Of a stretch of 64,000 nt of DNA, positions 15,494-60,044 are shown piece by piece. This stretch comes from Rhodopila globiformis. GTDB taxonomy: Bacteria; Pseudomonadota; Alphaproteobacteria; Acetobacterales; Acetobacteraceae. The first letter of the stretch is position 1. Each line of letters starts with the position of its first letter. Both the position numbers and the translations under genes were made by a program. Below the pieces are notes generated by a model. The model had not been told where the DNA came from. It did no database searches and was given only the letters and a program-made list of their open reading frames with translations. The DNA lies in the NCBI RefSeq assembly GCF_002937115.1, contig NZ_NHRY01000078.1:1-64000 (forward strand), written 5' to 3'.

Positions 15494-15625
15494 ATTCGGT
15501 CTGTTAACGGCCGATTAACCTCTCCGCGCTATTGCCGTTCGCGGTTGGCCCCTCATGATGGATTTCATGCTGAAGGGTGCGCATCGGCAGTTGGTATCGA
15601 CACCACGTCATGGTGGGCGAAGGCC

Positions 15626-15740
15626 CCATTGGCGTTGAAATAGGGCTGGCTGTTGCCTCCACCGTCATGGCCCGGCTTGTCCGGGCCACCTGTCGCGGCA
15701 CAGTGCTGGAATAGGTGGCCCGGACAAGCCGGGCCATGAC
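15626..15740. mobile_element. Partial copy (A) of the palindromic element, right end missing
   Basis: The left terminal repeat (CATTGGCGTTGAAATAG, one base different from the intact copies) at 15627-15643 is followed by the family's internal palindrome, arms 15664-15691 and 15713-15740, a perfect 28-bp inverted repeat. The 21-nt loop (15692-15712) is the reverse complement of the loop in the copies at 17.7 and 25.2 kb. The right terminal repeat is absent; a different tandem repeat follows. Just to the left, CGTCATGGTGGG (15606-15617) matches the palindrome arm into which the 25.2-kb copy is inserted. Confidence 0.75.
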
Positions 15741-15867
15741 GATGAGGACAGGCCACCTGTGCGTCCCAACCGACCTGCGGTCTGCTGTAGGTCGATGCGG
15801 ACACGCCGGGCCATGACGATGAGGACAGGCCGCCTGTGCGTCCCAATCGACCTGTGGTCTACTGTAG
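15728..15867. repeat. Two tandem copies of a 63-bp unit (77-bp period)
   Basis: The segment 15728-15790 is repeated at 15805-15867 with few differences. Each unit contains GCCATGACGATGAGGACAGG and ends with a motif GTCCCAACCGACCTGCGGTC or close variant. The terminal motif is found singly at several other places in the window (18919-18946, 19291-19318, 32912-32936, 59582-59606). No gene lies in 15494-15877. Confidence 0.75.
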
Positions 15868-17697: not shown

Positions 17698-17875
17698 GGT
17701 GACCGCCGCATTGGCGTCAAAATAGGGCTGGCTGTTGCTTCTTCGTCATGGCCCGGCTCGTCCGGGCCACCTATTCCAGCACTGTGCCGCGACAGGTGGC
17801 CTGGACAAGCCGGGCCATGACGGAATGGCAAGCATCGTGCCGCCACGCTATTTTAACGCCAATGGGTGACCGCCG
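17698..17875. mobile_element. Palindromic MITE-like element, copy B, with 11-bp target duplication
   Basis: The element itself is 17709-17864 (156 bp). Terminal inverted repeats of 17 bp: CATTGGCGTCAAAATAG (17709-17725) and CTATTTTAACGCCAATG (17848-17864), one mismatch. The flanks are a perfect direct repeat, GGTGACCGCCG, at 17698-17708 and 17865-17875. Inside is an inverted repeat, arms 17745-17772 and 17794-17821 (two mismatches), loop 17773-17793. No coding capacity. The duplication and the terminal repeats together show an insertion by transposition, presumably mobilised by a transposase encoded elsewhere. Confidence 0.85.
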
Positions 17876-18759: not shown

Positions 18760-19293
18760 GTCGCCGGCGCGAAGCCTAACCGGCTCACAGAGCTACCCGC
18801 CTGTCACACGATGATGTTCCAGAGCGGCAGATGCCAATTCTTCGCCACCTGTGCCGTATCCTGCCCAGGCAGCCATTCGTGGGCCATATCGTCTTGTCGT
18901 GGCGCCATCCCGGCCGGGCTACAGCAGACCGCAGGTCGGTTGGGACACTGAGGCCCCCTGTCCTCATCGTCATGGCCCGGCTCGTCCCTACGCAATGCAC
19001 ACATCCTGGAAACGAGTCGGAAATGACCGTAAAATCAAGTGCTTGCCTGGGCGCCAAGAGCGTTCCCCCATCGTCATGGCCCGGCTTGTCCGGGCCACCT
19101 GTCGCGGCACAAGTGCTGGAATAGGTGGCCCGGACAAGCCGGGCCATGACGATGGGGGAACGCTGCGGCGGACCGTTTCCGAGATGTGTGCATCCCGTAG
19201 GGCTCGTCCGGGCCACCTATCGCGGCACATGTGCTGGAACAGGTGGCGCGGACGAGCCGGGCCATGACGATGAGGGGGCGCCGTCGCCCTGTC
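18760..19293. repeat. Nested palindromic repeat block between the cyclotransferase and SulP genes
   Basis: No gene is present. Contents: a dispersed-motif copy at 18919-18946; a perfect 42-bp inverted repeat, arms 19059-19100 and 19123-19164, around a 22-nt loop; an outer imperfect inverted repeat whose left part (ATGCACACATC near 18996 and GGAAACG) is mirrored at about 19175-19205; and a second palindrome of the same family, about 19201-19268, with loop 19219-19240. A further dispersed-motif copy, 19291-19318, runs into the end of the SulP gene. This is a stack of related repeats, not a CRISPR: spacing is irregular and units are inverted. Confidence 0.7.
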
Positions 19294-24589: not shown

Positions 24590-25466
24590 CGCATTCTTTC
24601 CTTACCCGCGAAATCCGTCCGTCCCGGTCCCGGTGCCACGGCGATGCGGTTGCTTCGACGCATCGCCGCACCCGGACGAGCGCGGCTTCCGGCGGACGCG
24701 ATGGATGCTGCTGCCGTAATATTACATACTGACAGCGGACGGGTGGGGCCCATCAGACTGGCCACGGCGCGGCCAATGCCGGCCTGGCAGATCCGCTGCC
24801 AGACACGCCAGATGGTTACGCCTGCGACGGCTGAGGCCGTTGCACCGTTGCGGTGGAGTTTTGGCACGTCCCGGTCCTGTATCCGCCGATTTCTTGTCTG
24901 GAGAACCGCTGAGCGGCCGCCCGTCGTGCCAGGATGCCTCGCCAGGCGTTCCATTGCTGTGCAAATTCGGCATATACAACGCGAAAATGGCACCCCCGGA
25001 AGCCGAAGACTTCCGGGGGTGGCGCGTCACGATGGCGGGCGCCAGGGTGCAGGCAAAGCGGCGACCGGATGCCGAAGCGAGACGGGTATTCCAGAGACGG
25101 CCTGTCTTCATCGTCATGGCCCGCCTGTTCGCATCGGCGCTACCAAGGGCCCAAGCCAGGATAACTGACCCACCGGAGCCAGCGCACCGGGCCTTGCCTT
25201 TCTCCGTCATGGTGGGCCTGCTCCCCATTGGCGTTAAAATAGGGCTGGCTGTTGCCTCCTGGTCATGGCCCGGCTTGTCCGGGCCACCTATTCCAGCACT
25301 GTGCCGCGACAGGTGGCCCGGACAAGCCGGGCCATGACGGAATGGCAAGCATCGTGCCGCCGCCACGCTATTTTAACGCCAATGGGGCCTGCTCCCACCA
25401 TGACGGGGAGGCACCGACCTTGCCCATTTCCATCCATTGTGGCGGCCGTGACGACAGGGCGGCGCC
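24590..25466. other. Long intergenic region with repeats, including element copy C
   Basis: No gene is supported in 877 bases. Open frames on the minus strand (for example 24583-24993) have no recognisable motif and run into the cysteine-rich gene. The stretch holds the promoter of the cysteine-rich operon at its left, and from about 25200 a short palindrome carrying the inserted element copy C. The TRAP operon ends at 25467. Confidence 0.5.
25214..25396. mobile_element. Palindromic MITE-like element, copy C, with 12-bp target duplication
   Basis: The element is 25226-25384 (159 bp), with perfect 17-bp terminal inverted repeats CATTGGCGTTAAAATAG (25226-25242) and its complement (25368-25384). 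Flanks are a perfect direct repeat, GGGCCTGCTCCC, at 25214-25225 and 25385-25396. Internal palindrome: perfect 28-bp arms at 25262-25289 and 25311-25338, loop 25290-25310 in the same orientation as copy B. Removing the element and one duplication restores a 13-bp-arm palindrome, CCGTCATGGTGGG / CCCACCATGACGG (25204-25216 and 25394-25406). Confidence 0.88.
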
Positions 25467-59544: not shown

Positions 59545-60044
59545 TCTGCACGGCAGCAAGCGCCGGCCGGTGGGAACAGGTGAGCAGACCGCACGTTGGT
59601 TGAGACAGGGCGGCGGCGCTCCTCCATTGTCACGGCCCTGCTCGTCCGCATAGGCGCCAACATAGCGGCGCATGTTGCCTAACCGTTATGGCCCGGAGAG
59701 GCGGGTTATGACAACAGGCAACGCCTGGTTTGAAAGCCGGTTGGTATAACATCGACTCTGCGCTCCGCTCTGCGAACTCTGCGTTGAATCGCGGTGGTTG
59801 GGGCGCCACATGCGTTTCGGGCTGGGCGGGTCACCGGCCACGCCGATCTTTGTTGCGGCACCGCATTTTTCAACGCAGAGATCGCCGAGCGGAGCGCAGA
59901 GCGCGCAGAGAAGGGACATCGGCGGCCTGCGGTCGCGATGCCCGCTGCGCCTGTTCTTTGGGGATAAGCAGGTTCTGCAAGCCGAACAACCCAATGTCCG
60001 GGTTTCCTCGAAACGGTAAAGTAAGGGTGCTTGGCGGGAACGCC
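59545..60044. other. Repeat-bearing intergenic region before the Wadjet genes
   Basis: No gene is supported in 500 bases. It has a dispersed-motif copy at 59582-59606 (AGACCGCACGTTGGTTGAGAC core) and a CTCTGCG-rich inverted repeat at 59756-59901. The Wadjet operon runs leftward and ends at 60045; short open frames are spurious. Confidence 0.5.
59756..59901. repeat. Inverted repeat of CTCTGCG-type dispersed sequence
   Basis: CTCTGCGCTCCGCTCTGCG at 59756 continues to ACTCTGCGTTGAA (59788); the reverse complement with two mismatches lies at 59869-59901. An extra CGCGCAGAG extends the right arm. Such CTCTGCG-rich repeats are widely dispersed in some high-GC bacteria, by my recollection. Confidence 0.65.

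Follow-up and report, generated by a model that had tools for sequence, protein, structure and literature searches.

The 156-bp palindromic element at positions 17709-17864 of the window (the whole stretch analysed, 64,000 nucleotides of Rhodopila globiformis, C78:1-64000 of the 7.25-Mb draft genome G000 in 278 contigs) is, judged from its sequence, very probably a MITE that has the 17-bp ends of an IS4-family insertion sequence (IS) on either side of an inverted pair of CGTC-tagged REPs, and which an IS4 DDE transposase would mobilise in trans. Copies of this element usually carry a REP pair and often sit in the middle of a REP, which suggests a way in which REPs could spread without the enzyme normally credited with their movement. 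The relevant features of the window are the following.

15606-15626, plus strand: left part of the REP entered by the third copy, ending GGGCGAAGGCCC
15627-15741, plus strand: truncated third copy, which has left end CATTGGCGTTGAAATAG and the REP pair inside but lacks a right end
17698-17708, no strand: left target duplication GGTGACCGCCG, 11 bp, read directly and the same as 17865-17875; with 2/9 stem pairs the site is not a REP hairpin
17709-17864, no strand: family-1 MITE, 156 bp, the main element and one of 61 paired family-1 elements among the matches listed
17709-17725, plus strand: left 17-bp terminal inverted repeat, CATTGGCGTCAAAATAG
17744-17770, plus strand: first internal CGTC-tagged REP, CGTCATGGCCCGG-CTCGT-CCGGGCCAC, read from the sequence; passes the hairpin test in plus orientation
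17796-17822, minus strand: second internal REP, inverted, with a mismatch inside, read from the sequence; fails the strict hairpin test
17848-17864, minus strand: right 17-bp terminal inverted repeat, reverse complement of CATTGGCGTTAAAATAG
17865-17875, no strand: right target duplication GGTGACCGCCG, read directly
25205-25225, plus strand: left part of the REP entered by the second copy, beginning CGTCATGGTGGGC and ending with the duplication GGGCCTGCTCCC (25214-25225); 8/9 stem pairs around the axis of the rejoined site
25226-25384, no strand: second MITE copy, 159 bp, with perfect 17-bp ends and the 12-bp duplication GGGCCTGCTCCC
25385-25405, plus strand: duplication on the right (25385-25396), with the right-hand remainder of the REP entered by the second copy

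The 17-bp ends CATTGGCGTTAAAATAG are common to 17709-17864 and 25226-25384 and identify them as copies of one MITE. The original prediction had described the terminal repeats of the first element with their single mismatch, its 11-bp duplication on both sides and a second copy with a 12-bp duplication, all of which are present in the DNA. A window scan for CAT...ATG inverted pairs 80-600 bp apart, bordered by a 10-13 bp duplication with at most 2 mismatches, returned these two elements and no others. Absent from the original prediction were the third copy, which has its left end only and lies inside a REP, and the nature of the interior, an inverted REP pair. The element at 17709-17864 is strongly palindromic, with a DNA fold of -57.4 kcal/mol (z = -10.47) that none of 200 shuffles equalled. 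Both full copies are intergenic as judged by eye from the open reading frames, mechanical frames overlapping both. The window also has free-standing REP pairs that resemble the MITE cargo and are devoid of 17-bp ends, at 19083-19163 and 19201-19281.

The genome-wide search for the 17-bp end, the tabulation of duplications and the hunt for a full-length IS that had been proposed at the outset were all productive. The 17-mer has 80 + 75 = 155 genome matches at up to 2 mismatches and the reversed pattern 0 + 0, so that its recurrence is not due to chance. The stretches around the listed matches were joined into 499 kb with no base in conflict; about the first 100 of these 155 matches, and of the 116 end matches of a second family described below, were covered, and both family sizes are lower bounds. 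Family 1 comprises at least 61 paired elements, mostly of 150-170 bp, with longer forms of which many are near 260 and 380 bp. Among the matches listed, 28 of the 61 pairs have a perfect duplication (24 of 12 bp, 4 of 11 bp) and 13 have one mismatch, at unrelated sites, a pattern that supports the transposed non-autonomous unit that had been predicted. Being short, repeated and equipped with terminal inverted repeats and target duplications, these elements have the attributes of MITEs. The copy at 25226 has 10 other full-length copies at 97-99% identity.

Copies lacking duplications had been named as evidence that would speak against transposition. Such copies were found in part: 20 of the 61 pairs among the matches listed have no clear duplication, which counts against the main explanation, while the other 41 have a perfect or one-mismatch repeat. 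Several of the unclear pairs show the target motif in a different version on each side, for instance GGGCCTGCGCCC and GGGCGCAGGCCC on C278, the pattern that recombination between copies would give; others are decayed or wrongly paired. Four doubtful rows were left in the counts (C260:133175, of 75 bp, C200:1217, C251:28238 and C264:16066). The spacer between the internal REPs can point either way with respect to the asymmetric ends: of 34 family-1 copies of 150-162 bp, 19 have one orientation and 14 the other (1 not scored), and both full window copies belong to the second group.

The end was found at no more than 1 mismatch in 7 of 40 genomes searched, including that of R. globiformis itself. 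In the congener G020 it bounds a full-length IS (L157 1501-2859) whose ends CATAGGCGTTAAAATAG and CATAGGCGTTAAAATAA lie 1359 bp apart with one 368-aa frame between them. Compared with the MITE 17-mer, position 4 is A for T at one end, and the other end also differs at its last base. The 368-aa protein matches DDE_Tnp_1 (1e-14) and NCBIfam transpos_IS4_1 (5.7e-33), the latter with 114.4 bits, 0.6 bits under the cut-off of 115. Transposases of the IS4 family carry the signature Y-(2)-R-(3)-E-(6)-K in their DDE catalytic domain. D119, D174 and E315 as well as Y308-R311-E315-K322 are invariant in six relatives, and the G020 IS has the DDE domain with this YREK signature. A congener IS with matching ends that encodes an apparent IS4-family transposase supports the earlier suggestion of an IS4-type source. 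R. globiformis itself has a truncated IS copy (C55:48847); its one end is the identical 17-mer, adjoining GGGCCTGCGCCC, and it shows 70% identity across transposase residues 312-364; a weak transposase fragment is found on C218 too. The MITE therefore shares its ends with an autonomous element through the G020 IS and this truncated copy. Two observations count against the main explanation: no exact duplication was found around the G020 IS, whose flanks are GGGTCTGCGCCC and GGGCCTTCGCCC, and the flanks of its 68% identical relative L204 are inverted instead of direct. At both C278:16795-16953 in G000 and L204 2939-4301 the flanks are reverse complements of each other and not direct repeats, which inversion or recombination between copies could produce.

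In a scan of named genomes, 80 out of 205 relatives were kept, and 33 of the 80 have matching ends with an 8-13 bp duplication at a score of at least 22, compared with 0 of 66 displaced decoys. Many of their targets, not all, are of the GGG...CCC kind. When ends of at least 14/16 and an exact 9-13 bp duplication are required, 24 relatives remain, 8 of which show at least 7/9 stem pairs around the target axis. IS4-family duplications range from 10 to 12 bp; the exact repeats of the 24 relatives are of 10, 11 or 12 bp and those of the MITE of 11 or 12 bp. One relative with 60% identity, L225, combines the MITE-like end CATAGGCGTTAAAATAC with a 12-bp duplication that contains a single mismatch. 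A search of solved structures with the transposase alignment gave 0 matches. A simple internal deletion of the IS was rejected as the origin of the common MITE form, whose interior has the ends alone in common with the IS; one shortened IS-like unit occurs at L200 1651-2312.

Inside, the MITEs typically carry two CGTC-tagged REPs inverted relative to each other. In a strict hairpin test, REPs in both orientations were detected in 46 of the 61 family-1 elements among the matches listed (0 of 1220 shuffles), one REP in 11 and none in 4; the 15 elements without both count against the main explanation. In the copy at 17709 the first REP passes and the second, which has a mismatch, fails. According to the available text of the survey from which the definition was taken (PMC3733652), CGTC REP dimers have a CGTC tag, a stem of 8-9 bp starting from AT, a loop of 4 or 5 nucleotides and a head-to-head arrangement. 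Cargo and targets conform to it with a CGTC or TGTC tag, an 8-9 bp stem from AT, a 4-5 nt loop and the head-to-head dimer. Among 33 genus genomes, 6 contain the end followed after 8-42 bases by GTCATG, with 81 cases in R. globiformis, 52 in G008, 7 in G020, 4 in G021 and 1 each in G018 and G042 (reversed control 0). Of nine congener elements tested, 4 pass the hairpin test on both sides, 2 on one side and 3 on none. The four are all those tested from G008, which has the same design as family 1 with diverged REPs; the others are from G020 and G021, whose look-alike palindromes are less perfect.

REPs are also where the elements land. The preferred 12-mer target, GGGC-N4-GCCC, is the centre of a CGTC REP, with its 4-nt loop and the adjoining four bases of either stem arm, and is exact in 19 of the 41 family-1 insertions whose duplication has at most 1 mismatch among the matches listed. 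With up to 2 mismatches allowed, 27 of 49 listed insertions are at a REP axis, defined by at least 7/9 stem pairs; in the window this score is reached by 12 of 486 GG-N8-CC sites and by 0.33% of all positions. The axis was scored with each element's own duplication length, and a 12-bp axis throughout likewise gives 27 of 49. The other 22, among them 17709 with its 2/9 pairs, are off any clear REP axis and count against the main explanation. Uninterrupted ATGGYGGGC-N4-GCCCRCCAT sites number 81 in the genome (reversed control 0). In predicted RNA folds the REP arms pair across the insertion in 24/24 family-1 and 13/13 family-2 cases, largely because of the geometry and of the selection of cases, all of which have a REP target and are no longer than 300 bp. 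This retention of the hairpin is a possible reason, not a proof, for the tolerance of insertions into REPs.

A mechanism can be proposed on these grounds. The MITE ends would be bound by an IS4-family DDE transposase acting in trans, which would excise the unit in a cut-and-paste reaction and insert it at staggered cuts with a spacing of 12 bp or, in some cases, 11 bp. Its preferred landing site would be GGGC-N4-GCCC at the axis of a REP hairpin, with other GG...CC-like sites, such as 17698-17708, used too. Since one palindrome is here inserted at the symmetry axis of another, the REP arms could go on pairing outside the new, longer hairpin, and this preservation of the hairpin may matter in the cell. 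A second family with the sister ends CATAGGCGCTAACTTA would act alike, with 11-bp cuts at REPs that have 5-nt loops.

This family 2 was found through the end CATNNGCGCTAACNTA, which has 50 + 66 matches at up to 1 mismatch (control 3 + 1). It comprises at least 42 pairs, with 170-179 bp as the commonest length class, called more loosely than family 1 with up to 5 mismatches per end. Among the matches listed, duplications of the 42 pairs are perfect over 11 bp in 16 and over 12 bp in 2, have one mismatch in 6 and more in 18; some of the last, such as C245:12221 and C148:1054, are probably chance pairs, and C264:16066 is counted in both families. The 24 listed targets with at most 1 mismatch include 8 at CGGCTYGTCCG and 6 at GGGACACGCCC. 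At up to 2 mismatches, 15 of 28 listed insertions are at a REP axis (at least 7/9 stem pairs), compared with 9 of 515 GG-N7-CC sites in the window, and 29 of the 42 listed elements have REPs in both orientations. Cargo types, nested elements included, distribute among the listed family-1 matches as A 51, B 7, both 1 and other 2, and among those of family 2 as B 19, A 10, both 3 and other 10; un-nested family-2 elements with type A cargo are found at C210:8435 and C213:9305. The family-2 end with CGTCATG occurs in 1 of 385 class genomes, that of R. globiformis; this sample included 4 other genomes from its taxonomic family but none from its genus. At 59649-59665 of the window there is a family-2-like end, CATAGGCGCCAACATAG, that stands alone.

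The two families nest mutually. On C263 a 348-bp family-1 unit contains a family-2 unit of 178 bp that has an 11-bp duplication (remainder 159 bp), and on C265 a 349-bp family-2 unit contains a family-1 unit of 159 bp that has a 12-bp duplication (remainder 178 bp). Two further nestings, on C251 and C66, are less exact. The strong idea that each family serves as landing pad for the other was rejected: family-2 ends surround 8 of 61 family-1 sites and 137 of 1500 random points, family-1 ends 2 of 42 family-2 sites and 84 of 1500 random points, with no enrichment, these points not being a neutral background because the 499 kb were chosen for such ends. Most family-1 targets are outside any recognisable family-2 unit. 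The claim is therefore limited to the exact nested cases.

It is quite possible, at somewhat less than an even chance, that these are ordinary IS4-family MITEs whose REP content is accidental, one founder having trapped a REP pair and then been amplified, and that the targeting reflects a GGG...CCC preference meeting abundant GC-rich palindromes. The GGG...CCC-like preference in many of the 33 clean-ended IS relatives fits this possibility, as do the 8 of 24 cleanest relatives alone that lie at an extended palindrome, the 22 of 49 listed insertions outside REPs and the nesting without enrichment. Against it, two end families carry REP pairs with both cargo types found between both ends, G008 has the same design with diverged REPs (both present in 4/4 tested), and 27 of 49 listed insertions at a REP axis is well above the 12 of 486 background.

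A fossil family, whose transposase is gone and whose copies survive as relics maintained or reshuffled through recombination, is rather unlikely. Homologues of the transposase at E <= 1e-20 are present in 9 of 33 genus genomes; the R. globiformis assembly has no homologue at this threshold and no intact matching transposase, an absence that counts against the main explanation and, with the hybrid or decayed flanks in 20 of the 61 listed pairs, agrees with a fossil state. However, the 97-99% identity of the 10 full-length copies to that at 25226, together with the 28 perfect duplications among the matches listed, points to fairly recent movement, and the assembly is a draft in 278 contigs, from which a multi-copy IS may therefore be missing.

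That the units are REPINs or BIMEs moved by a RAYT (REP-associated tyrosine transposase), their shared ends being merely conserved flanks, is highly improbable: the REP-pair interior is as in REPINs and REP pairs without 17-bp ends do occur in the window, but no RAYT was found in R. globiformis or G008, which have more of these elements than any other genome, and the 11/12-bp duplications lie outside 17-bp ends that match those of an IS4-family IS. The RAYT search (PF01797) gave 0 matches in the R. globiformis genome with a control search that matched in 5 of 14 genomes; a RAYT origin was rejected for this genome, which does not show the RAYT gene by which REPIN/REPtron systems are defined. 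RAYT is present in 5 of 33 genus genomes, the G020 gene having an in-frame stop.

The MITE interpretation places the window element close to IS4-family insertion sequences (the NCBIfam transpos_IS4_1 group), with their YREK DDE transposase, CAT-initial ends, 10-12 bp duplications and GGG...CCC-like targets; it differs from them in having a REP pair instead of a transposase gene. IS231 is similar in target choice. As far as the available accounts go, REPINs and RAYT REPtrons likewise have an inverted REP pair as a mobile non-autonomous unit, whereas here the ends are of DDE type with duplications and no RAYT was found in the genome. Insertion of an IS4-family element into REPs at the palindrome axis is already known, according to the accessible text on ISRm22 of Sinorhizobium meliloti, all copies of which are so placed (PMC1525189). 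ISRm22 differs in being a full-length IS with 6-bp direct repeats and no REP cargo, and that text describes no MITE (PMC1525189). For the CGTC REPs of alpha-Proteobacteria, the consulted part of the 2013 survey reports no dedicated transposase and leaves their mover open; it already notes that some REP dimers lie inside longer palindromes, in H. neapolitanus and A. variabilis, while the dimers described here lie between IS4-type ends with 11/12-bp duplications (PMC3733652). In the open-licence literature no paper was found on CGTC REP pairs as cargo of REP-targeting IS4-type MITEs, nor on nested MITEs, IS231 targets or the combination of IS4, MITE and REP.

A broader reading is offered tentatively, as just short of an even chance: that in these Acetobacteraceae IS4-family DDE transposases, not RAYTs, spread CGTC REP pairs; that one REP pair can replace another as cargo between IS4-type ends; that the transposases aim at the REP hairpin axis, the REP being both passenger and landing pad; and that the two sister families of MITEs, one specific for 12 bp and the other for 11 bp, nest mutually, each such insertion lengthening a hairpin and not breaking it. 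CGTC REP pairs enclosed by IS4-family ends and bordered by exact duplications, in a genome that yielded no RAYT, provide a concrete candidate for the mover of CGTC REPs, and make this answer testable. The entry of a palindromic unit at the axis of an existing palindrome also suggests a low-damage strategy.

A possible third end family, CATAGGCGCTACAGCAGACC..., is found at C34:4829 and C200:14425 of G000 with 11-bp duplications in two mixed pairs, and pieces of it recur at 18913-18977 and 15721-15867 of the window. The very start of the contig (window 24-164) codes for a 57-aa DDE_Tnp_1 fragment, and genome-wide 27 of 48 matches to PF01609 are such equal-scoring 57-aa fragments at contig ends, showing that another multi-copy IS breaks this assembly.
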